DNA of 64,000 bases from Streptomyces monashensis (lineage in GTDB: Bacteria; Actinomycetota; Actinomycetes; Streptomycetales; Streptomycetaceae). The position numbers were made by a program, and so were the translations under genes. Below the pieces are notes generated by a model that was not told where the DNA came from, made no database searches, and worked only from the letters and a program-made list of their open reading frames with translations. The stretch spans positions 1 through 64,000 of the forward strand of contig NZ_MLYO01000100.1 of assembly GCF_001866665.1 (NCBI RefSeq). Direction: 5' to 3'. Shown in pieces: positions 8,784 to 22,544 of the stretch. Every line of letters starts with the position of its first letter. Within the stretch, counting starts at the first letter, position 1.

Positions 8784-9686
8784 ATGTCCGAACCGACCGG
8801 TGCCGCCCGCAGGCGCGGGCCCTTCAAGGTCGGGGACCAGGTTCAGCTGACCGACCCCAAGGGCCGCCACTACACGTTCACGCTCGAAGCAGGGAAGAAC
8901 TTCCACACCCACAAGGGCTCCTTCCCGCACGACGAACTGATCGGTGCTCCCGAGGGCAGCGTTGTCCGCACCACCGGCAACGTGGCCTACCTCGCGCTGC
9001 GCCCCCTGCTCCCCGACTACGTCCTGTCCATGCCCCGCGGGGCAGCCGTCGTCTACCCGAAGGACGCCGGGCAGATCCTCGCCTTCGCCGACATCTTCCC
9101 CGGCGCGCGCGTCGTCGAGGCCGGCGTCGGCTCCGGCTCGCTCAGCAGCTTCCTGCTGCGCGCCATCGGCGACCAGGGCATGCTGCACTCCTACGAGCGC
9201 CGCGAGGACTTCGCCGAGATCGCGCAGGCGAACGTGGAGCGCTACTTCGGCGGCCCCCACCCCGCCTGGCAGCTCACCGTCGGCGACCTCCAGGACAACC
9301 TGTCCGACACCGACGTCGACCGCGTCATCCTCGACATGCTCGCCCCCTGGGAGTGCCTGGAGGCCGTCTCCAAGGCGCTCGTCCCCGGCGGCATCCTGTG
9401 CTGCTACGTGGCCACCACCACCCAGCTCGCCCGGACCGTGGAGTCCATCCGGGAGATCGGCTGCTTCAACGAGCCGACCGCCTGGGAGACCATGATCCGC
9501 AACTGGCACATCGAGGGCCTTGCCGTCCGCCCGGACCACCGGATGATCGGCCACACCGGCTTCCTGCTCACCGCCCGCCGCCTCGCGGACGGCGTCGAAC
9601 CGCCCATGCGCCGCCGCCGCCCCGCCAAGGGCGCCTACGGCGAGGACTACGCCGGACCGAACGCCGACGGCGGCACCGGCCGCTGA
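8784..9686 (+). CDS. trmI: tRNA (adenine-58-N1)-methyltransferase
   Basis: This 300-residue cytosolic enzyme belongs to the TrmI family and methylates N1 of A58 in the tRNA T-loop using S-adenosylmethionine. The N-terminal beta domain (about 1-90) is followed by YPKDAGQILAFADI and SAM motif I VEAGVGSGSLSSFLLRA at 111-127. Further motifs are YERREDFAEIAQANV and VDRVILDMLAPWECLEA, with FLLTARRLADGV near the end. The C-terminal tail is basic and then Gly/Asp-rich. The gene follows the M50 protease gene by 47 bases. Its own -10 box sits immediately before the ATG, so it may be translated from a leaderless transcript. Confidence 0.95.
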   Translation: MSEPTGAARRRGPFKVGDQVQLTDPKGRHYTFTLEAGKNFHTHKGSFPHDELIGAPEGSVVRTTGNVAYLALRPLLPDYVLSMPRGAAVVYPKDAGQILAFADIFPGARVVEAGVGSGSLSSFLLRAIGDQGMLHSYERREDFAEIAQANVERYFGGPHPAWQLTVGDLQDNLSDTDVDRVILDMLAPWECLEAVSKALVPGGILCCYVATTTQLARTVESIREIGCFNEPTAWETMIRNWHIEGLAVRPDHRMIGHTGFLLTARRLADGVEPPMRRRRPAKGAYGEDYAGPNADGGTGR

Positions 9687-9712
9687 CCGGCCGCACACAC
9701 GGCTCAACGTGA

Positions 9713-9764
9713 GGGCGCCGTGCCCGAGTTCCCACCGGCCACCGGGAACCCGGGCACGGCGCCC
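9713..9764 (+). terminator. Strong two-part hairpin after trmI
   Basis: GGGCGCCGTGCCCG (9713-9726) pairs exactly with CGGGCACGGCGCCC (9751-9764), and GTTCCC (9728-9733) pairs with GGGAAC (9744-9749) inside. Confidence 0.75.
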
Positions 9765-9933
9765 GCTCGTTGACGGGGTGCCAGCGCTCCCCGTCCCCCA
9801 CGACGCGTACGCCCCGCACGCGCGCGGGCGTTGCGCCCACGGGAATCCCGCACCCCGCCGTTCCCCCGCACTGTGACGTGTGGCACCATGCTGGCCACCC
9901 CCACCGGCACAGCCCTCACAGGAGACACTCCTC

Positions 9934-10506
9934 GTGCAGCAATCCGCCGTCCCGGAGCTCGCCCACACCCAGACCAGGCCCATCCACTGGGTCGCCACGG
10001 CCACCGCCGTCGCCGGCGTCATGGCCCTCTCCTCCGTCGTACAGCCCGGCTCCGCCACGGCCGCCACCGCCACACAGCCCAGAGCCGCCCACGCGGTCGC
10101 CGACCCGCCGAGCACCGACGGCGTGGCCTTCCCGCTGAACTGCGGTCCGGTGAAAGCGGTGGTGGTGAAGAAGGCCAGCGGGGACCTGGACGGGGACGGC
10201 AGACCCGAGACGGTCGCCGTGGTGCACTGCGACACCGCCATGGGCACCCCGCCGGACGGCGTCTACGTCATCACACGCCCCTCCGACGGCGGCAGGCCAC
10301 GCGTGGTCGCCACCCTCGTGAAGCCCCAGGACCGGTACACCGTCACCGGCTTCTCCCTGCGCGCGGGCGCCGTCGGCGCCACCCTGCTCGGCTACTCCTC
10401 GGACGCGGTGCCCAACTGCTGCCCCGACGTGAAGACCCCGGTCACCTGGAAATGGAGCGGCAGCGCGTTCGTCCGCTCCACACCCGCCGACACCCACAGC
10501 GTCTGA
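9934..10506 (+). CDS. Small secreted protein of unknown function
   Basis: This 190-residue protein has an N-terminal hydrophobic stretch (VATATAVAGVMALSSVV) followed by an Ala-rich region ending in AHA, consistent with a signal peptide. The mature part has SGDLDGDGRPETVAVVHCD, which resembles an FG-GAP/Ca-binding-like repeat, and several cysteines that could form disulfides. The GTG start is chosen because GGAG lies 9 bases upstream; an in-frame ATG 54 bases earlier lacks such a site. It sits alone between trmI and a convergent ferredoxin gene. No function can be assigned. Confidence 0.75.
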   Translation: MQQSAVPELAHTQTRPIHWVATATAVAGVMALSSVVQPGSATAATATQPRAAHAVADPPSTDGVAFPLNCGPVKAVVVKKASGDLDGDGRPETVAVVHCDTAMGTPPDGVYVITRPSDGGRPRVVATLVKPQDRYTVTGFSLRAGAVGATLLGYSSDAVPNCCPDVKTPVTWKWSGSAFVRSTPADTHSV

Positions 10507-10539
10507 CCCGCGGCGACCGGCCCAGCACCCGGCGGGGAC

Positions 10540-10836
10540 TCAGTCCGCGTCGGGCCCGTACACCTCGACCCTGTCCGAAACACGCCGCACATGGATGCAC
10601 TCGCCCGGACACTCCCTGGCCGAGTCCACCACGTCCGCGAGCAGCGGCAGCGGCACCGGCGTCGACGCCCCCGCACTCTGCAGCAGCTCGTCGTCCGCGC
10701 CCTTCACATACGCCAGCCCGTCGATGTCCAGCTCGAACACCTCCGGGGCGTACTGGGCGCAGATCCCGTCGCCGGTACACAGATCCTGGTCGATCCAGAC
10801 CTCCAGCGCCTCGCCCCCCGGGGCCTCCTGCTGCAC
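10540..10836 (-). CDS. Ferredoxin, [3Fe-4S]/[4Fe-4S] type
   Basis: This 98-residue soluble electron carrier resembles the single-cluster ferredoxins of actinomycetes that donate electrons to P450s and other oxygenases. Cluster ligands are visible in DQDLCTGDGICAQYAPEVFELD (C-x5-C, lacking the middle cysteine of a 4Fe site) and in ARECPGECIHV. The spacing argues for a 3Fe-4S cluster, although the extra Cys in CPGEC is unusual. Two GTG codons are possible (10842 or 10836); the second is preferred because AGGAG is then 8 bases away. It is divergent from the arc gene. No P450 is adjacent; the nearest is more than 22 kb away. Confidence 0.88.
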   Translation of the reverse strand: MQQEAPGGEALEVWIDQDLCTGDGICAQYAPEVFELDIDGLAYVKGADDELLQSAGASTPVPLPLLADVVDSARECPGECIHVRRVSDRVEVYGPDAD

Positions 10837-11365
10837 GGTCACCTCTCCTGCCGTCTCGGTTCGCCGGACGGCCCGGGACGCCGCGAGCGCCAGCCAGGTC
10901 CGCTCCAGCGGCTGTTGAACACCCCTCGACCCTACCTCCGCCGCTTTCGAGCCCTCTTCCGCCGGTGACCGGGTTTCCCCACGATCACACGCGGGTACGA
11001 CGGCCCGACCGGGACAGGGGAGTCCCAGCCAGGGGAACGACCACTTCAGGCCGGGCCGACGGTGACACCGTCCACCCGGACCATCGCTCTGCGTGATGAC
11101 GTGCGAGCGCACAGCATGCTGCCCGCCTCCGGGACGACCAGCCCTGAACGGACAACTCCGGCCAGCTTCGAAGGAATTCGACCACGCGATGCCCGGAACA
11201 AGCTGCTTCCACATCACGTTGAGTGGGTATCCCCTCCGTGCGAGGGAGAGCGCATCGGGTGACCGACGACACACCTTGACAGTCTTGGTGATCTAGGGGT
11301 TTCAATCGACACCCACCCAGGTAGGGTCTGGAAGCGTCCAGCTCCCCTTGGAGGAGGTGAGGACC
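10837..11365. other. Long intergenic region between ferredoxin and arc genes
   Basis: These 529 bases must contain the promoters of two divergent genes. Visible signals are an ECF-type promoter candidate (11195-11220), an isolated TTGACA (11276-11281) without a well-spaced -10 box, and TAGGGT (11322-11327), which is 38 bases before the arc start. No RNA gene or supported reading frame was found. Confidence 0.5.
11195..11220 (+). promoter_or_regulatory. Candidate SigR/SigH-type promoter upstream of arc
   Basis: GGAAC (11195-11199) is followed by exactly 18 bases and GTT (11218-11220). This resembles the thiol-stress sigma factor promoter (GGAA(T/C)-N18-GTT) known for Streptomyces SigR and mycobacterial SigH. 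The resulting leader to the arc start would be about 140 bases. Such a short motif can occur by chance. Confidence 0.35.
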
Positions 11366-13132
11366 GTGGCAGCCCACGACGACGACATGAACCGCGGCAT
11401 CCGCCCGGGACGAGGGTCCGACGACCCGGCCGGGCAGATCGCCTACCTTGAGCAGGAGATCGCCGTCCTGCGACGCAAGCTCGCCGACTCTCCGCGGCAC
11501 ACGAGGATTCTCGAAGAGCGGATCGTCGAGCTACAGACGAACCTGGCCGGCGTGTCCGCCCAGAACGAACGACTGGCCAACACCCTCCGCGAGGCCCGCG
11601 ACCAGATCGTGGCCCTCAAGGAAGAGGTCGACCGGCTCGCCCAGCCGCCCGCCGGCTTCGGTGTCTTCCTACAGGCCAACGAGGACGGCACCGCCGACAT
11701 CTTCACCGGCGGCCGCAAACTCCGGGTGAACGTCAGCCCAAGCGTCGACCTCGACGACCTGCGGCGCGGCCAGGAAGTCATGCTCAACGAGGCCCTCAAC
11801 GTGGTCGAGGCCATGGAGTACGAGAGCGTCGGCGACATCGTCACCCTCAAGGAGATCCTCGAGGACGGCGAACGCGCCCTCGTACTCGGACACACCGACG
11901 AGGAACGCGTGGTCCGGCTCGCCGAGCCACTCCTGGACGTCACCATCCGCCCCGGCGACGCCCTCCTGCTCGAACCCCGCTCCGGCTACGTCTACGAGGT
12001 CGTACCCAAGAGCGAGGTCGAGGAACTCGTCCTCGAAGAGGTCCCGGACATCGGCTACGACCAGATCGGCGGCCTCGGCAACCAGATCGAGGCCATCCGC
12101 GACGCGGTCGAGCTGCCGTACCTCTACCCCGACCTGTTCAAGGAACACGAGCTGCGCCCGCCCAAGGGCGTACTGCTCTACGGCCCCCCCGGCTGCGGCA
12201 AGACACTCATCGCCAAGGCCGTCGCGAACTCCCTGGCCAAGAAAGTCGCCGAAGTCACCGGCCAAGCCGCCGGCAAGAGCTTCTTCCTGAACATCAAGGG
12301 CCCCGAGCTCCTCAACAAATACGTCGGCGAAACCGAGCGACAGATCCGCCTCGTCTTCCAGCGCGCCCGCGAGAAGGCCAGCGAGGGCACCCCCGTCATC
12401 GTCTTCTTCGACGAGATGGAATCCCTCTTCCGCACCCGCGGCTCCGGTGTCAGCTCGGACGTGGAGAACACCATCGTCCCCCAGCTGCTCGCCGAGATCG
12501 ACGGCGTGGAAGGCCTGCAGAACGTGGTCGTGATCGGCGCCTCCAACCGCGAGGACATGATCGACCCCGCCATCCTGCGCCCCGGCCGACTCGACGTGAA
12601 AATCAAGATCGAGCGTCCCGACGCCGAGGCGGCCAAGGACATCTTCGGCAAATACCTCACCGAACGCCTCCCCCTGCACGCCGACGACCTCGGCGAACAC
12701 AGCGGCGACAAGACCACCACCGTCCAGAGCATGATCCAGACGGCGGTCGAGCAGATGTACGCCGAATCCGAGGAGAACCGCTTCCTGGAAGTCACCTACG
12801 CCAACGGCGACAAGGAAGTCCTCTACTTCAAGGACTTCAACTCCGGCGCCATGATCGAGAACATCGTCGGCCGCGCCAAGAAGATGGCCATCAAGGACTT
12901 CCTCGAAAAAAGCCAGAAAGGCCTTCGCGTCTCCCACCTCCTCCAGGCCTGCGTGGACGAATTCAAGGAGAACGAAGACCTGCCCAACACCACCAACCCC
13001 GACGACTGGGCCCGGATCTCCGGAAAGAAGGGCGAACGGATCGTATACATCCGCACGCTCATCACCGGAAAGCAGGGCGCGGACACCGGACGCTCCATCG
13101 ACACGGTGGCGAACACCGGTCAGTACCTGTAA
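11366..13132 (+). CDS. arc: Proteasome-associated AAA+ ATPase ARC (Mpa)
   Basis: This 588-residue ATPase forms the hexameric ring that recognises Pup-tagged proteins, unfolds them and feeds them into the 20S core. The N-terminal coiled coil that binds Pup spans about residues 25-92, followed by OB domains (about 95-225) and an AAA+ module. Walker A GPPGCGKT is at 273-280 and Walker B VIVFFDE at 344-350; the sensor region is [10 protein letters not shown] and the arginine finger region is RPGRLD. The C-terminus is QYL, the proteasome-docking motif seen in Mpa. The GTG at 11366 is chosen over an upstream TTG because GGAGG lies 8 bases before it. A U-tract terminator separates it from dop. Confidence 0.97.
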
Positions 13133-13184
13133 AAACAGGGCGGCTGCGGGTGCCCTCACCGGGTACCCGCAGCCCTCTGTTTTT
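13131..13184 (+). terminator. Intrinsic terminator with U-tract after arc
   Basis: AAAAACAG (13131-13138) and GGCTGCGGGT (13142-13151) pair with ACCCGCAGCC (13165-13174) and CTGTTTTT (13177-13184). This is a long stem with a run of five T at its end. The A side overlaps the arc stop codon. Confidence 0.88.
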
Positions 13185-13374
13185 CCGGCCACAACCGGCC
13201 ACGACCGGAGCAGGCAATGACGCAAATGATCTCCCCACCAGCGCAAAGGCGTTCTAGGCTCGTTCCTGCCGCCGAGTCGCGCCGCGCGGGGACGGGCACC
13301 GCGCACGCACCGGAGCCCCGGCGGTACGTGAGCGGCGCCCACGACCGAGGGCGCCGCCGGGCAAGGAGGGCCGC

Positions 13375-14886
13375 ATGACCGTACGGCGAGTAATGGGCAT
13401 CGAGACGGAGTACGGGATCTCCGTCCCCGGCCACCCCAACGCCAATGCCATGCTCACCTCGTCCCAGATCGTCAACGCCTACGCGGCGGCGATGCACCGG
13501 GCCCGCCGGGCCCGCTGGGACTTCGAGGAGGAGAACCCGCTGCGGGACGCACGAGGCTTCGACCTCGCCCGGGAGGCCGCCGACGCCAGCCAGCTCACCG
13601 ACGAGGACATCGGCCTCGCCAACGTGATCCTCACCAACGGCGCCCGGCTGTACGTCGACCACGCCCACCCCGAGTACAGCGCTCCCGAGGTGACCAACCC
13701 CCGCGACGCCGTCCTGTGGGACAAGGCCGGCGAGCGGATCATGGCCGAGGCCGCAGAGCGCGCCGCCCAGCTCCCCGGCGCCCAGCCCATCCACCTCTAC
13801 AAGAACAACACCGACAACAAGGGCGCCTCCTACGGCACGCACGAGAACTACCTGATGAAACGGGAAACCCCCTTCTCGGACATCGTGCGCCACCTCACGC
13901 CCTTCTTCGTCTCCCGCCAGGTCTTCGCCGGAGCCGGCCGCGTCGGCATCGGCCAGGACGGACACGAACACGGCTTCCAGCTCAGCCAGCGCGCCGACTA
14001 CTTCGAAGTCGAGGTCGGCCTGGAAACCACCCTCAAACGCCCGATCATCAACACCCGCGACGAGCCGCACGCCGACGCCGAGAAATACCGCCGACTGCAC
14101 GTGATCATCGGCGACGCGAACCTGTCGGAGATCTCGACCTACCTGAAACTGGGCACGACCGCCCTGGTGCTGTCCATGATCGAAGACGGCTTCATCGCGG
14201 TGGACCTCGCGGTCGACCAGCCCGTACGCACCCTCCACCAGGTCTCCCACGACCCCGGCCTCCAGCGCCTGATCACCCTCCGCAGCGGCCGCACACTCAC
14301 CGCGGTCCAGCTGCAGATGGAGTACTTCGAGCTCTCACGCAAGTACGTCGAGGAGCGCTACGGCGTCGACGCCGACGAACAGACCAAGGACGTCCTGGCC
14401 CGCTGGGAGGACACGCTCAACCGGCTCGAGAACGACCCGATGAGCCTCGCCGGCGAGCTGGACTGGGTCGCCAAGCGAGAACTCATGGAGGGCTACCGCC
14501 GCCGCGACAGCCTCGACTGGGACGCGGCCCGGCTCCACCTGGTCGACCTCCAGTACGCCGACGTACGCGCCGAGAAGGGCCTCTACAACCGTCTGGCGGC
14601 CCGCGGCCGCATGAAGCGCCTGTTGGACGAGTCCGAGGTCGACCGGGCCCGCACGAAGCCGCCGGAGGACACACGCGCGTACTTCCGCGGCCGCTGCCTG
14701 GAGCAGTACGCGGACGACGTCGCCGCCGCGAGCTGGGACTCGGTCATCTTCGACCTGCCCGGCCGCGACTCCCTCCAGCGCGTTCCAACCCTGGAACCGC
14801 TACGCGGAACGCGAAATCACGTCAAGGAGCTCCTGGACCGCTGCCGCACGGCAGAAGACCTGGTCAGGGTGTTGTCGGGCGGCTGA
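13375..14886 (+). CDS. dop: Dop, depupylase / Pup deamidase
   Basis: This 503-residue enzyme belongs to the glutamine-synthetase-like Dop/PafA family. It hydrolyses the isopeptide bond between Pup and substrate lysines and, where Pup ends in Gln, deamidates it. Visible features are the ATP/Mg motif GIETEYGI (8-15), a Dop-type insertion at about 45-80 that PafA lacks, catalytic Asp95 in [38 protein letters not shown], and the [23 protein letters not shown] block. It starts at ATG with AAGGAGGG upstream. Because Pup here ends in Glu, depupylation is probably the main role. Confidence 0.97.
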
Positions 14887-15058
14887 GCGCGGCCGGCGGA
14901 CAGCCGTGGCGCCCCGGGCGGGCAGGGTGGAAAACCCGCCGTCCGGGAATCATCGAGGTGGCCCCCGCACGTTGTGGAAACTGCGGGGCCGATGTCGGAC
15001 CCGGCTTGTAGGGTCTGATCATCACCGATCGGCAGGCGAACTGAGCGGGGTGAGGGTT

Positions 15059-15277
15059 ATGGCAACGAAGGACACCGGCGGCGGCCAGCAGAAGGCCACG
15101 CGTTCCACCGAGGAAGTCGAGGAGCAGGCGCAGGACGCGCAGGCTTCGGAGGACCTCAAGGAGCGGCACGAGAAGTTGTCGGATGACGTGGACTCGGTAC
15201 TCGACGAAATCGATGACGTACTCGAGGAAAATGCCGAGGACTTCGTGCGCTCATTTGTGCAAAAAGGTGGAGAATAG
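15059..15277 (+). CDS. pup: Prokaryotic ubiquitin-like protein Pup, ending in Gly-Gly-Glu
   Basis: This 72-residue, largely disordered and acidic protein is the degradation tag. The N-terminus is MATKDTGGGQQK. The central and C-terminal helix region LKERHEKLSDDVDSVLDEID is the ARC-binding segment, and the protein ends QKGGE. The encoded C-terminal residue is Glu (GAA at 15272-15274), not Gln, so it can be ligated by PafA without prior deamidation. The start is the ATG that gives the conserved N-terminus; GGTGAGG precedes it. It lies 172 bases after dop and 50 bases before an HNH endonuclease gene on the same strand. Confidence 0.97.
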   Translation: MATKDTGGGQQKATRSTEEVEEQAQDAQASEDLKERHEKLSDDVDSVLDEIDDVLEENAEDFVRSFVQKGGE

Positions 15278-15327
15278 CAGGCAAATCGGACATCGGGCCT
15301 TTGAAGTGAAGGCTGGCGGGGGGACGG

Positions 15328-15933
15328 GTGGCCGAGGAGCCAGACGCAAAGCAATGTGGGAAGTGTGGGCGGGAACTGTCCCTCGCGGCCTTCGCGAGGG
15401 ACAGGAATCGGCGCGATGGCCTCCAGGTGCATTGCCGGGAGTGCGTGGCTGAGTACAGCGCTGCGCATTACCGGCGTCGCCGGGCGGCAATGGGTAGGCC
15501 TGTCCGGGAGAAGGTTGACGTCCCGGTCGGGCACAAGCTCTGCCGGACATGTGGCGAGATCAAGCCACACAGTGAGTGGCATCGCAACGCGACTGCGTCC
15601 GACGGCTTGTCCACGCGCTGCAAGGCCTGCCGGGCGGTGCAGGGACGGCAGGACCATCTGAAGCGCAACTACGGCCTCACCGAAGCCGAGCGCGACGCGA
15701 TGATCGCCGCCCAGCGTGGGCTCTGTGTGATCTGCCTGGATGCTCTGCCCGTGCATGTGGATCACTGCCACAAGACGGGTAGGGTCCGAGGCGTACTGTG
15801 CTTCAACTGCAACTCGGCCATCGGCAAGTTGGGTGACGACCCCGACGCCGTGCGCCGGGCCGCTGCCTATCTGGAAGGAAACTCGTGGAAGCCAATACTC
15901 GTGGCACCGGGCGTCTACCAGCTGCCTTCCTGA
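15328..15933 (+). CDS. HNH endonuclease VII-like protein between pup and prcB
   Basis: This 201-residue protein has two zinc-ribbon modules (C10xxC13...C36xxC39 and C72xxC75...C98xxC101). A C-terminal recombination endonuclease VII domain follows: C133xxC136, then [13 protein letters not shown] at 143-155 and C158xxC161N. The DHxH and CNxxxG arrangement matches phage T4 endonuclease VII-like HNH enzymes, which resolve branched DNA. The start is GTG at 15328 with a G-rich stretch upstream. Its last 49 bases overlap the prcB reading frame, so it is translated within the proteasome operon. A role in protein degradation has no support from the sequence; the function in this context is unknown. 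Confidence 0.88.
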
Positions 15934-16730
15934 CGCCGGGCTCTTCTTCGTTCATGGACTTCCTCTCCGAGCACCAGCCCGAGATGCTGCCGGGCAATCG
16001 GCGGCTGCCGGCCACCCAGGGCGTGCTGGAGGCGCCGCACGGTACGACCATCGTGGCCGTGACGTTCCCCGGCGGCGTCGTGCTGGCGGGTGACCGGCGG
16101 GCGACGATGGGCAATGTCATCGCCCAGCGGGACATCGAGAAGGTCTTCCCGGCGGACGAGTACTCGGCGGTGGGCATTGCCGGCACCGCGGGTCTGGCCG
16201 TCGAGATGGTCAAGCTCTTCCAGCTGGAGCTGGAGCACTTCGAGAAGGTCGAGGGTGCCCAGCTGTCCCTGGAGGGCAAGGCCAACCGGCTGTCGACGAT
16301 GATCCGCTCCAACCTCGGCATGGCCATGCAGGGCTTGGCCGTGGTGCCCCTCTTCGCGGGGTACGACCTGGACCGTGAGAAGGGGCGCATCTTCTCGTAC
16401 GACGTCACGGGCGGTCGCAGCGAGGAGCACAACTTCGCGGCGACGGGCTCGGGCTCGATCTTCGCGCGTGGTGCGATGAAGAAGCTGTTCCGTGACGACC
16501 TGACCGAGGAGCAGGCCACCACTCTGGTGGTCCAGGCCCTCTACGACGCGGCAGACGACGACTCGGCGACCGGTGGTCCCGATGTCGCCCGCCGGATCTA
16601 CCCGATCATCACCGTGATCACCGAGGACGGCTTCCGCCGGCTCACCGAGGGCGAGTCCTCGGAGTTGTCCCGCGCGGTGCTCCAGCGCCGTCTGGAGGAG
16701 CCCGACGGCCCCAAGGCCGCCCTGCTCTGA
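15885..16730 (+). CDS. prcB: 20S proteasome beta subunit
   Basis: This 281-residue subunit is the catalytic part of the 20S core, making the inner beta rings of the alpha7-beta7-beta7-alpha7 barrel. A propeptide of about 53 residues is removed at HG|TTIVAV, exposing the nucleophile Thr54. Other conserved parts are [17 protein letters not shown] (Asp and Lys/Arg of the active site), [13 protein letters not shown] and [14 protein letters not shown]. The GTG start lies inside the end of the upstream nuclease gene and has GGAAGG 6 bases upstream. prcA follows after 64 bases. Confidence 0.97.
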
Positions 16731-16794
16731 GGCGGCGGGCCCCGGTTCTTATCAAGGTGATCCAGTGACCACGACAGAAAGGGACGGATAACCG

Positions 16795-17550
16795 GTGTCG
16801 ACGCCGTTCTATGTCTCACCCCAGCAGGCCATGGCCGACCGGGCCGAGTACGCCCGCAAGGGCATCGCCCGCGGTCGCAGCCTGGTCGTGCTGCAGTATG
16901 CCGACGGCATCGTGTTCGTCGGCGAGAACCCGTCCCGTGCGCTGCACAAGTTCAGCGAGATCTATGACCGGATCGGTTTCGCGGCCGCCGGCAAGTACAA
17001 CGAGTACGAGAACCTCCGCATCGGTGGTGTGCGCTACGCGGACCTGCGCGGTTACACCTATGACCGTGACGACGTCACGGCGCGTGGTCTCGCCAATGTG
17101 TATGCCCAGACGCTGGGCACGATCTTCTCCTCTGCCGCCGAGAAGCCGTACGAGGTGGAGCTGGTCGTCGCCGAGGTGGGGGAGACTCCCGAGGGTGACC
17201 AGATCTACCGGTTGCCGCACGACGGCTCGATCGTGGACGAGCACGGCTCGGTCGCGGTGGGCGGCAACGCCGAGCAGATCAGTACGTACCTGGACCGTGA
17301 GCACCGTGACGGCATGACCCTGGCCGAGGGGCTGAAGCTTGCGGTGCAGGCTCTGTCCCGTGAGCCCAACGGTACGCAGCGGGAGATTCCCGCCGAGCGT
17401 CTGGAGGTCGCGGTGCTGGACCGTACGCGGCCGCAGAAGCGCAAGTTCAAGCGCGTCGTCGGCCGTCAGCTCGCTCGTCTGCTGGAGGCGGACGGTGCGG
17501 CGACCGAGGCGGAGAGCGCCGAGGAGGCCGAGGAGTCGGGCGAGGAGTAG
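16795..17550 (+). CDS. prcA: 20S proteasome alpha subunit
   Basis: This 251-residue subunit forms the outer heptameric rings of the 20S core, which gate entry and dock ARC through its C-terminal tail. The N-terminus [25 protein letters not shown] is the gating H0 helix region; [21 protein letters not shown] and [24 protein letters not shown] follow. There is no catalytic Thr, as expected for the alpha type. The C-terminal tail is Glu/Ala-rich ([10 protein letters not shown]). It starts at GTG 64 bases after prcB and is followed by a strong hairpin that ends this operon segment. Confidence 0.97.
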
Positions 17551-17573
17551 CCTGCCGCCTCGTCCTGCTCAGG

Positions 17574-17605
17574 TGTGCCCCGGCCGTTGTCCTGGCCGGG
17601 GCACA
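17574..17605. terminator. Hairpin after prcA, between convergent genes
   Basis: TGTGCCCCGGCC (17574-17585) pairs exactly with GGCCGGGGCACA (17594-17605), followed by TGTGTTTT on the prcA strand. It ends 25 bases before the convergent lacI-type gene and may serve both. Confidence 0.8.
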
Positions 17606-17629
17606 TGTGTTTTCGGTCGTCCGGTCTGC

Positions 17630-18646
17630 TCAGCGGCCCGGTGGCGGCGCCGTGGAGCCCCGGACGACCAGGTGGACCGGGATGTCGCCGCTCTCGGGCA
17701 GGGCGCCTTCCAGGACCGCCAGCAGGGCGCGCATGCCGCGTTCGCCGAACAGCTCGGCGTCCAGTCGTACGGTCGTCAGCTCGGGGTCGATGGCGGTGGC
17801 CAGGGCGAGGTCGTCGAGGCCGGTGACGGAGATGTCGTCCGGGATGCGCAGGCCGAGGCGGCGTATGGCCTTGTAGGCGCCGGCGGCGAGTTTGTCGTCG
17901 TCGCAGACGACCGCCGTGGGGCGTGGGCCGGGTGTGGTGAGCGCGGTCTCGGTGGCGGCCAGGGCGCCTTCGATGGAGATGGGGGCGCGGGCGGTGTGTA
18001 CCTGGGTGCCGGGTACGGCTGCCATGCGTGCGGCCAGCTCCCGTGCGCGCAGTTCGAAGGTCCAGGAGGGCACGTCCGCGGCGAGGTGCAGCACGCGGCG
18101 GTGGCCGAGGCTCAGCAGGTGGTCGGCGACCTGGCGGACCCCGTCGCCGATGTCCAGGTTGACTGTGGCGGCGCCCAGGCTGCCCTCCGGGTCGCTGTCG
18201 AGCATCACGAGGGGTAGCTGGTCGCCGCGGATGGCGGTGAGTGCGTCGGCGGCCATGGAGGAGGCGAGGACGCCGTCCAGGGCGGTTTGCGCGGAGGCGA
18301 AGGGGTCGCGGGCGGGGCCGATGCCTTCGGGGGAGGGGTACAGGACGACGCCGAAGCCGTGCTCGGCTGCGACGCGTGCGGCGCCGGTGTAGACGCCTGC
18401 GAAGAATTCTGTGGTGAGGGCGGGGACGACGAGCAGGACGGTGCGGGTGCGGCCGAGGCGGAGGTTGCGGGCGGCGAGGTTGGGCCGGTAGCCGAGTTCG
18501 CGTGCTGCTTCGCGGACTCGTTGTGCAGTGGTCTCGGACACGCGTCCGCGCCACTTGTCGCCGAGGACGAGGGAGACGGCGGCCTGCGAGACTCCGGCCG
18601 CTTGGGCGACGTCACGGCTGGTCGGTCGCGTGCTGCTGCGTGCCAC
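17630..18646 (-). CDS. LacI-family transcriptional regulator
   Basis: This 338-residue repressor has an N-terminal helix-turn-helix (RPTSRDVAQAAGVSQAAVSLVLGDKW), the hinge region GYRPNLAARNLRLG, and a periplasmic-binding-protein-like ligand domain (VLLVVPALTTEFFAGVYTGA; VCDDDKLAAGAYKAIRRLG; DDISVTGLDDLALAT). The start is GTG with AAGGAG about 10 bases upstream. It is divergent from an MFS transporter gene. Two TACGTA elements 21 bases apart in the shared promoter region are candidate operators. The ligand is unknown, probably a sugar or nucleoside by family analogy. Confidence 0.92.
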   Translation of the reverse strand: MARSSTRPTSRDVAQAAGVSQAAVSLVLGDKWRGRVSETTAQRVREAARELGYRPNLAARNLRLGRTRTVLLVVPALTTEFFAGVYTGAARVAAEHGFGVVLYPSPEGIGPARDPFASAQTALDGVLASSMAADALTAIRGDQLPLVMLDSDPEGSLGAATVNLDIGDGVRQVADHLLSLGHRRVLHLAADVPSWTFELRARELAARMAAVPGTQVHTARAPISIEGALAATETALTTPGPRPTAVVCDDDKLAAGAYKAIRRLGLRIPDDISVTGLDDLALATAIDPELTTVRLDAELFGERGMRALLAVLEGALPESGDIPVHLVVRGSTAPPPGR

Positions 18647-18690
18647 CGTGGTTGCGCTCCTTCACCTGGACGTCCGAACAGCGCACATGG

Positions 18691-18717
18691 TACGTATGAG
18701 GGAGGACGTTATACGTA
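18691..18717. promoter_or_regulatory. Candidate LacI-family operator pair
   Basis: TACGTA occurs at 18691-18696 and 18712-18717, exactly 21 bases apart (two helical turns). The second copy lies inside the near-palindrome GTTATACGTAAC. The site lies between the divergent regulator and transporter genes. Confidence 0.5.
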
Positions 18718-18766
18718 ACACGTGGGGCGGGCGGGGCTCCGCGTGCGAGCTGCTGAGGGGCAGGAC

Positions 18767-20026
18767 ATGGCCACCGGATACCTGGGGATACTCCGGGCGC
18801 GGCACGCGCTGCGGCTGCTCACGGGCACGCTGGTCGGCCGGCTGCCGAACGCGACCGCGGCCATCGCCCTGGTGCTGTTCGTGCGTGCCGAGGGCGGCAC
18901 CTACAGCCTGGCCGGTGCTCTGGCGGCCGTGTACGGCGTCGCCAACGCGGTCGGCCAGCCGGTGCTGGGCCGGCTCGTGGACCTGTTCGGGCAGCCGCGC
19001 GTCCAGCTGCCCGCCGCGGTCCTCGCCGCCGCCTGCATGGCCGTCTTCGCGTTCTGCGGCACCGGTCCGCTGTCTCTCGCCTATGTGTCCGTCGCCGCGG
19101 CGGGCCTGTTCGCGCCGCCTCTGGAGGGCGGCCTGCGTGCCCTGTGGCCGTCCGTGCTGCGCGGCGAGGAGCAGGTGCATACCGCGTACGCCATGGACGC
19201 GATCGCGCAGGAGGTCATGTTCACGGTCGGGCCGCTGCTGGTGACCCTGTGCGCGTCCGTGTGGGACGCGCGCGCCGCTCTGCTCGTGCTGAACGTCCTC
19301 GGTGTCCTCGGCGCGCTCTCGGTGGTCGTCTCGCCGCCCTCGCGCGCGTGGCGTTCGGCCCCGCGCGAGGCCCATTGGCTCGGTGCTCTGCGCTCGGCCG
19401 GCCTGCTCGCCCTGCTCGGCGCCTTCCTGTTCGTCGGCATGGCGCTGGGGTCCATCACGGTCGCGTCCGTGTCGTACGCCGACGGGCACGGCGGTGACGC
19501 GGTCTACGGCTGGATGATGGCCGGGCTGGGGCTGGGCGCGCTGGTCGGGGGCGCGGTCTACGGCGCCCGCCAGTGGTCCGGCGCGCCCGAGCGGCGACTG
19601 CGGTTCCTGGTGGCGCTTCTGGCGGTGTGTTACCTGCCGCTCATGCTGGTGCCGGGCGCGGTGTCCATGGTGCTGCTCTCGGTCGTCTCGGGGGTGTTCC
19701 TCGCGCCCTGTATCGCCTGTGCGTTCATCATCGTCGACCGGCACGCGCCGAGGGGTACCGTCACGGAGGCGTTCTCCTGGCTTGTCACGACGTTCACCGT
19801 GGGTGCCTCGGTCGGTACGGGGCTCGCGGGTCCGGTGGTCCAGGCCGGGGGCACGGTGTGGGGTTTCGCCGTTCCCGGTGTCGCGGGCGCCGTGTCGTTG
19901 CTGGTCCTGCTCGTCACCGGGCGGGTCCTCGCAGCTCCCGCGCGGGGCGCGGTGGTTGCGGCTTCATCGGAAACTGATCCAAATCGTGCTGTCGAACCCC
20001 GTTTCAGCTCGGGGGATCGGGCGTAA
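18767..20026 (+). CDS. Major facilitator superfamily transporter
   Basis: This 419-residue membrane protein has about 12 hydrophobic segments with short Gly/Ala-rich loops. MFS features are the early LTGTLVGRLPNA, the cytoplasmic loop GQPVLGRLVDLFGQPRVQ (motif A-like between TM2 and TM3) and PPLEGGLRALWPSVL. The ATG at 18767 has GAGGGGCAGGA upstream. It is probably controlled by the divergent LacI-type regulator. The substrate is unknown; a drug or sugar efflux role would be a guess. The gene ends 9 bases before pafA, so transcripts may continue into it. Confidence 0.88.
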   Translation: MATGYLGILRARHALRLLTGTLVGRLPNATAAIALVLFVRAEGGTYSLAGALAAVYGVANAVGQPVLGRLVDLFGQPRVQLPAAVLAAACMAVFAFCGTGPLSLAYVSVAAAGLFAPPLEGGLRALWPSVLRGEEQVHTAYAMDAIAQEVMFTVGPLLVTLCASVWDARAALLVLNVLGVLGALSVVVSPPSRAWRSAPREAHWLGALRSAGLLALLGAFLFVGMALGSITVASVSYADGHGGDAVYGWMMAGLGLGALVGGAVYGARQWSGAPERRLRFLVALLAVCYLPLMLVPGAVSMVLLSVVSGVFLAPCIACAFIIVDRHAPRGTVTEAFSWLVTTFTVGASVGTGLAGPVVQAGGTVWGFAVPGVAGAVSLLVLLVTGRVLAAPARGAVVAASSETDPNRAVEPRFSSGDRA

Positions 20027-20029
20027 TGT
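20024..20029 (+). promoter_or_regulatory. Candidate -10 box (TAATGT) directly upstream of pafA
   Basis: TAATGT overlaps the stop codon of the MFS gene and is followed by six bases and the pafA ATG. This fits a leaderless transcript. No Shine-Dalgarno sequence precedes the start. Confidence 0.45.
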
Positions 20030-20035
20030 TCAGTC

Positions 20036-21397
20036 ATGGACCGCCGCATTTTCGGGCTGGAGAACGAGTACGGTGTCACGTGCACGTTCAGGGGACAGCG
20101 CCGCCTGTCGCCTGACGAGGTGGCGCGGTACCTCTTCCGCCGTGTCGTGTCATGGGGCCGCAGCAGCAATGTCTTTCTGCGAAACGGCGCCCGGCTCTAT
20201 CTCGACGTGGGCTCACATCCGGAATACGCGACACCCGAATGTGACAACGTGATCGAACTGGTCACCCACGACAAGGCCGGCGAGCGCATTCTCGAAGGAC
20301 TCCTGGTGGACGCGGAACGACGCCTGCACGAGGAGGGAATCGCAGGCGACGTCTACCTCTTCAAGAACAACACCGACTCGGCGGGCAACTCCTACGGCTG
20401 CCACGAGAACTATCTGGTGGCGCGGCACGGGGAGTTCTCCCGGCTCGCGGACATCCTCATCCCCTTCCTGGTCACCCGGCAGCTGCTGTGCGGCGCGGGC
20501 AAGGTGCTCCAGACGCCGCGCGGCGCCGTGTACTGCGTCAGCCAGCGTGCCGAGCACATCTGGGAGGGCGTCTCCTCGGCCACGACCCGCTCGCGGCCCA
20601 TCATCAACACCCGCGACGAACCCCACGCGGACGCGGAGCGCTACCGCCGGCTGCACGTCATCGTGGGTGACTCGAACATGTCCGAGACGACCATGCTGCT
20701 CAAGGTCGGGGCGACCGATCTGGTGCTGCGCATGATCGAGGCGGGCACCGTGATGCGCGACCTGACCCTGGAGAACCCGATCCGGGCGATCCGCGAGGTC
20801 AGTCACGACATCACCGGCCGCCGCAAGGTGCGGCTGGCCAGCGGCCGGGAGGCCTCCGCGCTGGAGGTGCAGCGCGAGTACTTCGACAAGGCCGTGGACT
20901 TCTGCGACCGCCGCGGCATCCGTACCGGCACGGTCGCCCGGGTGCTGGAGCTGTGGGGCCGCACGCTCGACGCGATCGAGGCCGAGGAACTGGACCGGAT
21001 CGGCACCGAGATCGACTGGGTCATGAAGTACAAGCTCATCGAGCGGTACCGGGCCAAGCACAACATGACCATGTCGCATCCGCGGGTCGCGCAGATAGAC
21101 CTCGCCTACCACGACATCCACCGCCGCCGCGGCCTGTACTACCTGCTGGAGCGCAAGGGCCAAGCGACGCGGGTCTGCGACGACTTGAGGATCTTCGAGG
21201 GCAAGTCGGTTCCTCCGCAGACCACTCGGGCCCGTCTGCGTGGCGACTTCATCCGCCGGGCGCAGGAGCAGCGCCGGGACTTCACGGTCGACTGGGTCCA
21301 TCTGAAGCTCAACGACCAGGCACAACGCACCGTGTTGTGCAAGGACCCGTTCCGTTCGGTGGACGACCGGGTGGAAAAGCTCATCGCCGGAATGTGA
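20036..21397 (+). CDS. pafA: Pup-protein ligase
   Basis: This 453-residue glutamine-synthetase-like ligase phosphorylates the C-terminal Glu of Pup with ATP and joins it to substrate lysines. Key elements are GLENEYGV (7-14), catalytic Asp57 in [67 protein letters not shown], and the C-terminal domain [28 protein letters not shown] that contacts Pup. It lacks the N-terminal insertion that marks Dop. It starts 9 bases after the MFS stop codon and is followed by a strong terminator. Confidence 0.97.
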
Positions 21398-21448
21398 CGA
21401 AGGATTCCGAGTCGGGCGTTTCCGTACCGCAATGCCGGAACGCCACAC

Positions 21449-21477
21449 GGGCGCCGTACGTTTCCCGTACGGCGCCC
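21449..21477 (+). terminator. Hairpin after pafA
   Basis: GGGCGCCGTACG (21449-21460) pairs exactly with CGTACGGCGCCC (21466-21477) across a 5-base loop, followed by TTCTC. Confidence 0.8.
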
Positions 21478-21539
21478 TTCTCGCGTCGTAGAGTTGCGCG
21501 CACGCCAATCCACAAGATCGACCGATTACGAGGCCTTCC

Positions 21540-22544
21540 GTGCGCCGACGCTCACTCCTCCTCGCCGCCGTCCCCGCGGGACTGGTCACGCTCTCCGCGT
21601 GCGGTGACAACAAGTCCGCCTCCGGCACGACGAGTGCCTCGCCGACGCCCTCGGTGTCCGCGGCACCTCCGCCGAAGATCGTGGCGGGACCGCTGCCGGC
21701 GATCACGGCGGGCACGAAGTTCGGCGAGAAGCCGACGGTCGCCAAGGGCGCGGGTGAGCCGTCGAAGGACCTCGCGGTCAAGACGGTGATCGCGGGCAGT
21801 GGCCGCACGGTCGCCGAGAACGACTTCATCAAGGCGAACTACCTGGGCCAGATCTGGGACACGGCCAAGGTCTTCGACAACTCCTACGACCGCAGGCGCC
21901 CGCTGGTCATGCAGCTCGCGCAGGGCAGCATCATCGACGGCTGGCGGTACGGTCTGACGGGCAAGAAGGTCGGCAGCCGCGTCCAGATCGCCGTCCCGCC
22001 CACGTGGGGCTACGGCACGTCCGGTGAGCCGCAGGCAGGCATCAAGGGCACCGACACCCTGGTGTTCGTCATCGACGTGATCGAGTCGTACAACTCCAAG
22101 AGTTCCGTCACGGGCAAGGCGGTCGCGCAGAGCGACGCGGCCCTGCCGAAGGTGGCCGCCAACACCGACGGCGAGGTCCCGAAGGTCACGGTCCCGAAGA
22201 CCGCCCCGCCGAAGAAGCTCGTGTCGACCTATGTCCTGGAGGGCGACGGCGAGGAGCTGAAGGCCGACCAGACGGTGCTGTGCCAGTTCCAGGGCCTGGT
22301 CTGGGACGGCGGCAAGACGTTCCAGCGGACGTACGGTTCGGGCCGGCTCGCGCAGTTCTCGCTGGAGCGGATGCAGCAGACGGTCAAGGGCCTGGCGCAG
22401 GGCCTGACCGGCAAGAAGGTCGGCAGCCGCGTGCTGATCGTGGTCCCGCCGGAGCTGGGTTACGGCGACACCCCGCCGAGCGGCGGCCCCGTCGGGAAGG
22501 GTGCCACCCTCGTGTTCACGGTGGACGTGCTCGCCGCGATGTAG
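21540..22544 (+). CDS. Exported FKBP-type peptidyl-prolyl isomerase with two FKBP domains (lipoprotein)
   Basis: This 334-residue protein has a lipoprotein signal (RRRSLLLAAVPAGLVTLSAC, Cys21) and a Ser/Thr/Pro linker. Two FKBP-like domains follow, at about residues 78-180 and 230-334. Each contains the family block GLTGKKVGSRV followed by PP(T/E)xGYG, and the domain ends DTLVFVIDV or ATLVFTVDV. The active-site tryptophan of FKBP is represented by GWRYG in the first copy but replaced in the second (VKGLAQG), so the second domain may be inactive or chaperone-like. It starts at GTG. It likely assists folding of exported proteins outside the membrane. Confidence 0.9.
   Translation: MRRRSLLLAAVPAGLVTLSACGDNKSASGTTSASPTPSVSAAPPPKIVAGPLPAITAGTKFGEKPTVAKGAGEPSKDLAVKTVIAGSGRTVAENDFIKANYLGQIWDTAKVFDNSYDRRRPLVMQLAQGSIIDGWRYGLTGKKVGSRVQIAVPPTWGYGTSGEPQAGIKGTDTLVFVIDVIESYNSKSSVTGKAVAQSDAALPKVAANTDGEVPKVTVPKTAPPKKLVSTYVLEGDGEELKADQTVLCQFQGLVWDGGKTFQRTYGSGRLAQFSLERMQQTVKGLAQGLTGKKVGSRVLIVVPPELGYGDTPPSGGPVGKGATLVFTVDVLAAM

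Follow-up and report, generated by a model that had tools for sequence, protein, structure and literature searches.

Why should a gene for a nuclease stand inside a proteasome operon, between pup and prcB, and what keeps it there? The question was raised by a stretch of 64,000 nucleotides of Streptomyces monashensis DNA (contig NZ_MLYO01000100.1, positions 1 to 64,000 of the forward strand; hereafter the window), in which a first-pass annotation had pointed out an endonuclease VII-like protein of 201 residues whose gene overlaps prcB by 49 bases. The presence of an endonuclease VII-type gene in the proteasome operon is confirmed, frame and overlap being as first described (Table 1), and the interpretation then attached to it is, as a whole, partly supported. 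All 53 intact loci in the genus and family samples described below have the same 49-nt overlap.

Genetic Context

Table 1. Features of the proteasome locus in the window.
Feature	Position	Strand	Basis and remarks
arc	11348-13132		NCBIfam/Pfam
dop	13375-14886		NCBIfam/Pfam
pup	15059-15277	+	72 aa, C-terminal GGE; PF05639, E 3.2e-30
Endonuclease VII-type (DHHRN) nuclease gene	15328-15933	+	201 aa, GTG start
First Cys4 repeat, C10-C39, zinc-ribbon-like	15355-15444	+	translation, conservation, model
Second Cys4 repeat, C72-C101, zinc-ribbon-like	15541-15630	+	translation, conservation, model
Beta-beta-alpha-metal catalytic core, residues 110-183	15655-15876	+	Pfam; VIA-align to T4 endonuclease VII, Z 7.2
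GTGGAT, -35-like box, codons V144-D145	15757-15762	+	retained in remnants
ACGGGTAGGGTCCGAG, sole ACGGGTARGGTCCGNG site in the genome	15775-15790	+	genome motif search
TAGGGT, -10-like box, codons G151-R152-V153, 17 nt after GTGGAT	15780-15785	+	synonymous invariance, retention in remnants, motif counts
GGAAGGAA, likely prcB ribosome-binding site within the nuclease frame	15873-15880	+	read from the sequence; codons 183-185 retained in remnants
Overlap of nuclease 3' end with prcB 5' end, 49 nt	15885-15933	+	ORF coordinates, intact loci
prcB, proteasome beta subunit	15885-16730	+	TIGR03690, E 2.1e-118; GTG start at 15885
prcA, proteasome alpha subunit	16795-17550	+	TIGR03691
pafA	20036-21397		NCBIfam/Pfam

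From the overlap it had been concluded that the nuclease is translated together with the proteasome. The positional coupling to prcB stands, but the overlap is no proof of always joint synthesis because the ribosome-binding site and start of prcB, as well as a promoter-like element, lie inside the nuclease frame. A functional tie to the Pup system, also proposed, found no backing: nothing was found that links the protein to pupylation, and, regardless of how the nuclease gene fares, 110 of 111 genus genomes and 80 of 81 family genomes have prcB. A scan of 13 neighbouring frames (8784-22544) turned up no DNA methylase, the lone methyltransferase being TrmI-like (tRNA), and no gene with a link to repair; the location is without the character of a defence island.

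The flanking genes show variation of their own. Pup ends in Glu in 56 and in Gln in 52 of 108 genus loci (codon 15272-15274 in the window), implying that deamidation before ligation is needed in some close relatives and not in others; both ends occur with intact, remnant and empty loci. The genome also carries a second prcB, 61% identical (G000:C137:183429-184262, locus L114), which adjoins a lysylphosphatidylglycerol synthase-like frame and has no pup within the 5.3 kb read; second copies occur in other genomes as well, for example G015, G037, G263, G287, G316 and, by profile, G056.

Protein Sequence and Predicted Structure

Residues 110-183 match the Pfam family Endonuclease_7 (PF02945, E 2.9e-24; 85.2 bits against a curated cut-off of 23.6), which places the endonuclease VII motif at the C-terminus, and the protein also matches the endonuclease VII group phrog_2633 (E 2.8e-43). 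The core residues are C133/C136, D145, H146, H148, R154, C158/C161 and N162, so that the endonuclease VII core of the first-pass annotation holds with all DHHRN residues; their equivalents in T4 endonuclease VII are D40, H41, H43, R54 and N62 (PMC6083498). The two zinc ribbons claimed alongside it appear as two Cys4 repeats (C10/C13/C36/C39 and C72/C75/C98/C101), which probably bind zinc, judging from the cysteine pattern. Conservation was assessed over 126 distinct intact copies, obtained from 132 intact loci after one was dropped by a length rule and five duplicates were removed: each of the 17 Cys and core positions keeps its residue in 124-126 of them, and D145, H146, H148, R154 and N162 do so in 126 of 126.

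The AlphaFold model (mean pLDDT 89.2, pTM 0.54) begins with two repeats that combine short strands with a long helix, followed by a strand-strand-helix core; since the pTM is low, the model does not settle how the domains pack. Alignment of the core to T4 endonuclease VII with VIA-align gave Z 7.2 and rmsd 2.2 over 67 residues, a Z below 8 that would be modest alone but with which the sequence concurs. A Foldseek search of the PDB gave just two matches with E <= 0.001, both of them chains of Hpy99I; this enzyme is also the best PDB sequence match (3fc3, residues 69-183), and the best PADLOC match is a type II restriction model.

Several related frames were noted. Elsewhere in the same genome, a 463-aa frame gives a second, weaker endonuclease VII match (G000:C177:8885-8995, L002). 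Three loci of one genus of the family (L068, L074 and L076) encode near-identical C-terminal cores with very different N-terminal Cys4 parts, as if the presumed DNA-reading half had been exchanged. Outside the family, two endonuclease VII matches stand side by side, adjoining prcB, in G100, G175, G185 and G204, and in the last of these both are fused in one 322-aa frame (L294:1498-2466).

Occurrence at the pup-prcB Junction

A species-level scan (one genome per species, 84,980 species) yielded at least 546 confirmed stretches; the best 80, which were examined, are all titled Streptomyces and all lie between pup and prcB, 79 being free of stop codons. The nearest named copies, from S. pseudovenezuelae and others, are up to 86% identical. 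In a class-wide sample of 148 genomes, 122 have a prcB match and 30 a nuclease match with E <= 1e-15, nine within the genus and 21 outside the family; for 20 of these 21 the best match adjoins prcB (or pup and dop at a contig end, G132), the exception being G186. Thirteen of the class loci were read (L282-L294), and pup lies upstream in all 13 and prcB downstream in 12. Among 20 hand-picked prcB loci without such a nuclease match, pup was found in 19, and in about half of those only some tens of bases separate its end from prcB. Intervals of 380-590 nt occur in three of these control loci (L401, L409 and L415), the first two of which also give weak C-terminal matches and so are not proven to be free of the element.

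Within the genus, 111 genomes were sampled, 110 of them with prcB (G293 gave no match), and 108 intervals were read, two being left out (G244 and G287) where prcB lies at a contig start. These comprise 39 intact genes, three defective ones (full frames without the Cys pairs), 44 remnants and 22 'empty' intervals, so called by protein similarity. The family sample of 81 genomes, 80 of them with prcB (none in G070), contributed 80 of 83 loci, three second prcB copies without pup being omitted; 18 are intact, one defective, 19 remnants and 42 empty. Joined, with eight loci in common, the samples comprise 180 loci: 53 intact, three defective, 60 remnants and 64 empty. Some pup-prcB intervals are very short (0 nt in one genome and 39-40 nt in five).

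On a prcB and dop tree of the 108 genus loci, the intact state changes 20 times, compared with a mean of 31.8 and a minimum of 24 among shuffles, and a single presence at the root would entail 30 losses. The intact state thus tracks the tree beyond chance, indicating that part of the pattern is inheritance with loss. The comparison of pup-prcB intervals proposed in the first-pass annotation has a divided outcome: the intact gene is missing from most relatives, but most loci still hold the promoter-like motif described below, a pattern that suggests a gene long present there that has decayed time and again.

The idea of a phage-derived gene fixed in the operon is likewise met halfway, in that relatives occur in 1188 phage records but the gene is not fixed, being intact in only the minority of genus and family loci counted above. 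Five phage records reach 60-80% identity, over parts of the sequence; viral matches (at least 80 loci) are at most 53% identical over the core only and about 30-34% identical where most of the protein is spanned, and none of pup, prcB, dop and prcA is present at the 80 viral loci listed. Plasmid relatives number 18 records, none covering 80% of the query, and no transfer vehicle was found among the viral, phage and plasmid relatives.

Turnover of Alleles and Selection

Free-standing homing genes are described as optional genes placed between two conserved genes, one of which they cleave in genomes without the gene (PMC6083498). The present gene shares the first of these traits, as an optional gene between conserved pup and prcB, and it shows more tree conflict and allele replacement than the controls, but no excess of recent transfers. 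A tree-conflict test covered 78 of 81 loci: of 34 supported splits in the tree of the element, 23 disagree with supported splits of the flanks; equally long control pieces gave 4 of 21 and 9 of 32 (dop), 6 of 26 (prcB) and 13 of 35 (prcA). In sliding comparison, L186 and L182 are 91-99% identical over the flanking genes but 63-80% identical over the element; L118 and L142 drop to 61-75% there before recovering to 99% in the last 150 nt of the element, and L143 and L140, with similar flanks, stay at 96-99%. For the second pair the silent divergence (pS) is 0.57 inside the element against 0.15 in the flanks, for the third 0.05 against 0.18, which points to replacement and not to fast protein change. 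Similarly, L036 and L305 have differences at 26 of 47 4-fold sites of the element, against 16 of 232 beside it.

Among 45 pairs with flank 4-fold divergence below 0.20, nine exceed 0.40 in the element, compared with 0 of 48, 1 of 55 and 0 of 45 for controls. In a broader 4-fold outlier test, 103 pairs were far more divergent within the element than next to it (p < 1e-4), against 5, 53 and 30 for the controls, and 14 were far more alike there, a sign of recent transfer, against 86, 9 and 15, so that recent gain across species is no clearer than in controls; because the control pieces evolve at uneven rates in this test, more weight is placed on the tree conflict and the close pairs. Replacement by diverged alleles is well supported by these sequence comparisons, and locus-specific turnover of a homing-like kind would account for it.

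Intact copies evolve under purifying selection, with dN/dS 0.195 (542 pairs) compared with 0.101 in the flanks and 0.11-0.25 across all three regions of the protein; a ratio of about 0.2 argues that the frame is not there by chance. Such constraint would also be expected of a host-serving nuclease, with a job in DNA repair or recombination suited to co-expression with the proteasome, ancestral but dispensable in many species, repeatedly lost, and with alleles shuffled by ordinary recombination. The same site across many families, the agreement of the intact state with the tree and the lack of any excess of recent transfer fit this explanation. We nevertheless regard it as rather unlikely: few genus loci are intact and decay is frequent, allele replacement and tree conflict exceed those of the flanking genes, and the scanned neighbours offer no repair gene link.

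The Hpy99I and type II restriction matches, the diverged alleles found at a single locus and the mosaic make-up of the N-terminal parts could alternatively denote a Hpy99I-like defence or restriction enzyme that acts on phage DNA and whose DNA-reading part is diversified by selection. This seems very improbable for a gene whose dN/dS is well below 1 in all three regions, which has no DNA methylase among its scanned neighbours, and which lies outside any defence island, bound to one operon site across families.

Promoter-like DNA in the Active-Site Codons

A shared motif like ACGGGTAAGGTCCGTG, met in 'empty' intervals, turned out to be the active-site codons T-G-R/K-V-R of intact genes. In the 126 distinct intact copies, codons 151 (GGT) and 153 (GTC) are invariant, codons 155 (GGC) and 156 (GTA) are invariant among copies with the main residue, and codon 152 is AGG in every copy that bears Arg (86%), whereas the neighbouring Arg codon 154 is CGT in only half of the copies. 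AGG and GGT are minority codons, making up 15% of Arg and 16% of Gly codons in these genes. Codon conservation over the 46 testable residues has a median of 0.63, and the top six values all fall within codons 150-156.

The remnants, 58 of 60 of which could be aligned, carry a corresponding footprint. Measured against the nearest intact copy, identity is mostly 0.66-0.84 over codons 112-142, rises to 0.93-0.98 at codons 143-146 (first box), drops to 0.67-0.77 in the spacer codons 147-149, which include that for the catalytic H148, and returns to 0.92-0.99 at codons 151-153 (second box). As codons 158-173 are also well kept (0.83-0.97), it is only the upstream part and the spacer that set the boxes apart; at the prcB ribosome-binding site identity is 0.98-0.99.

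The motif GGTANGGTNCG occurs in 98 of 108 genus intervals (38 of 39 intact, 3 of 3 defective, 36 of 44 remnant and 21 of 22 empty, leaving eight remnants without it) and in 61 of the 72 other family loci (14 of 14 intact, 15 of 16 remnant and 32 of 42 empty), that is, in 159 of 180 family loci where 0.2 would be expected. It lies 96 nt upstream of prcB in every motif-bearing intact genus locus and nearer in empty loci, and its longer form has one site in the whole 10.25-Mb genome. Beyond the family it was found in none of 12 cores (no core was found in two of 13 class loci, L282 and L284), in none of 75 viral cores and in none of 20 hand-picked loci of other families. The simplest reading is that the motif arose inside the nuclease gene in the window's family and was retained on loss of the protein.

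Vegetative promoters of Streptomyces have the consensus TTGACPu ... TAGPuPuT, with a spacing of 16-18 nt. TAGGGT fits the -10 hexamer, while GTGGAT, at its spacing of 17 nt, is a poor fit to the -35 hexamer, with few bases in common; a scan of 14800-17000 with the sigma-70 consensus TTGACA/TATAAT found no promoter. We read GTGGAT-N17-TAGGGT as a two-box footprint pointing at prcB, and the boxes as a putative prcBA promoter. The weak -35-like box leaves room for another cis element, such as the operator of a regulator, in place of the prcBA promoter itself, and the core does form a partial inverted repeat (ACGG-N7-CCGT) that is longer in some empty loci. However, a promoter would be expected to look like this, with a TAGGGT hexamer, a second box at a distance of 17 nt and a spacer that has decayed. 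The motif's position upstream of prcB, constant in motif-bearing intact genus loci and nearer to that gene in empty loci, also speaks against an operator or similar element, which we consider an unlikely explanation.

Possible Relics in Empty Loci

Since most 'empty' family loci keep the motif and the ribosome-binding site, comparison of empty sites in the family defines neither the edge of an insertion nor a cleavage target, and no cleavage site was identified by it. The motif is present in 53 of the 64 empty loci, which suggests that these 53 are relics of the element. A DNA HMM found the element in 17 of 64 empty intervals, 58 of 60 remnant intervals and no shuffles, with no significant DNA similarity in the other 47 empty loci, and gapped comparison of the stretch after the motif gave p <= 0.05 in 24 of the 53 motif-bearing empty loci, where two to three would be expected. 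The remaining empty loci are indistinguishable from convergence.

Empty loci also differ in the DNA just after pup. A stem of at least 10 bp occurs there in 15 of 22 empty, 4 of 39 intact, 6 of 44 remnant and 0 of 3 defective genus loci. In empty loci the hairpin is long, GC-rich and within the first 75 nt past the pup stop, with z of -4.7 to -7.7 in four examples compared with -1.5 in the window. It may end the pup transcript and split pup and prcBA into two transcripts. Within the first 70 nt after the pup stop, before the nuclease start, a palindrome like CCTTCGAATCGAAGG was seen (for example in L325 and L305); it is present in 19 of 39 intact, 5 of 44 remnant and 0 of 22 empty loci, and is perhaps an operator or the nuclease's own site.

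Proposed Account of the Locus

We favour, as somewhat likelier to be right than wrong, a combined account in which the prcBA promoter is written in the nuclease active site and the gene is kept by homing-like turnover, the regulatory role of the internal DNA being the firmer half and homing the softer. The gene would encode a free-standing endonuclease with a C-terminal endonuclease VII-type (DHHRN) domain, held at one site, pup-prcB, in many Actinomycetes. From its sequence the protein is most likely a sequence-specific endonuclease of the F-CphI kind; it presumably cleaves DNA, and cleavage would drive its spread. The gene's location, its optional occurrence, its decay and the replacement of its alleles are in keeping with a homing gene of this sort. 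Turnover at the locus would resemble homing, intact copies being replaced by diverged alleles, decaying and being lost. In the window's Streptomycetaceae-like family, codons V144-D145 and G151-R152-V153 would double as the two-box promoter GTGGAT-N17-TAGGGT, and the last nuclease codons would hold the ribosome-binding site and start of prcB, placing a second, host-serving constraint on the same DNA, so that boxes and ribosome-binding site would stay where the protein decays. With promoter-like DNA inside the gene and prcB starting within it, clean loss would come at a cost, and the gene's long residence could be explained in this way.

A bolder version, which we put forward tentatively and think somewhat less likely than not to hold in full, is that a selfish nuclease is hard to delete because its active-site codons carry the host promoter that starts prcBA, and that on death of the nuclease this DNA is domesticated as a proteasome promoter, while a strong hairpin after pup splits the old operon.

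Should the account hold, the same DNA would serve two unrelated purposes, as the catalytic motif of a nuclease and as the promoter of a bacterial proteasome. It would explain the long anchoring of an optional nuclease in a conserved operon and why transcription of the proteasome genes may here be separate from that of pup. Enzymes of the endonuclease VII homing type, described mainly from phages in the account of PMC6083498, would then have a fixed site in bacterial chromosomes too. Any genome of the family shows whether its locus is intact, decayed or trimmed to the promoter, and the life cycle of such an element would thereby become testable.

The kind of nuclease is itself known, and we found no prior account of a promoter within its active site: a literature search gave no paper on this gene or on such a promoter, in a coverage that excluded most subscription papers and so is not proof of absence. 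On the uncharacterised S. coelicolor gene that the first-pass annotation placed at this position, a literature search for SCO1645 gave no match; S. coelicolor SCO1646 is named as pup in passages of two papers, and the word 'nuclease' is absent from the main text of PMC2588565.

Comparison with Known Systems

Hpy99I, a type II restriction enzyme, is the best PDB sequence match and the sole Foldseek match with E <= 0.001, but the match omits the first Cys4 repeat, the VIA-align Z is only 4.7 over 67 residues, and a DNA methylase is missing from the scanned neighbours here. SegF and SegG of phage T4 belong to the GIY-YIG family and thus to a different nuclease family, and they reside in a phage whereas the present gene is chromosomal. 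Their intronless homing (cited in PMC6083498) is alike in involving an optional nuclease gene between two conserved genes. T4 endonuclease VII, a Holliday junction resolvase, resembles the protein in its catalytic domain and zinc Cys pairs, although that domain is N-terminal in the T4 enzyme (PMC6083498) and C-terminal here.

F-CphI and the other DHHRN homing endonucleases are likewise close counterparts. Set against the phage gene for F-CphI as portrayed in PMC6083498, the present gene is chromosomal and lies at the proteasome operon, encodes two N-terminal Cys4 repeats, overlaps the downstream gene and holds promoter-like DNA in its active-site codons, and its product is predicted to cleave DNA. 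With these enzymes it has in common the C-terminal endonuclease VII motif, all five DHHRN residues, the Cys pairs, and a free-standing gene of optional occurrence between conserved genes (PMC6083498).
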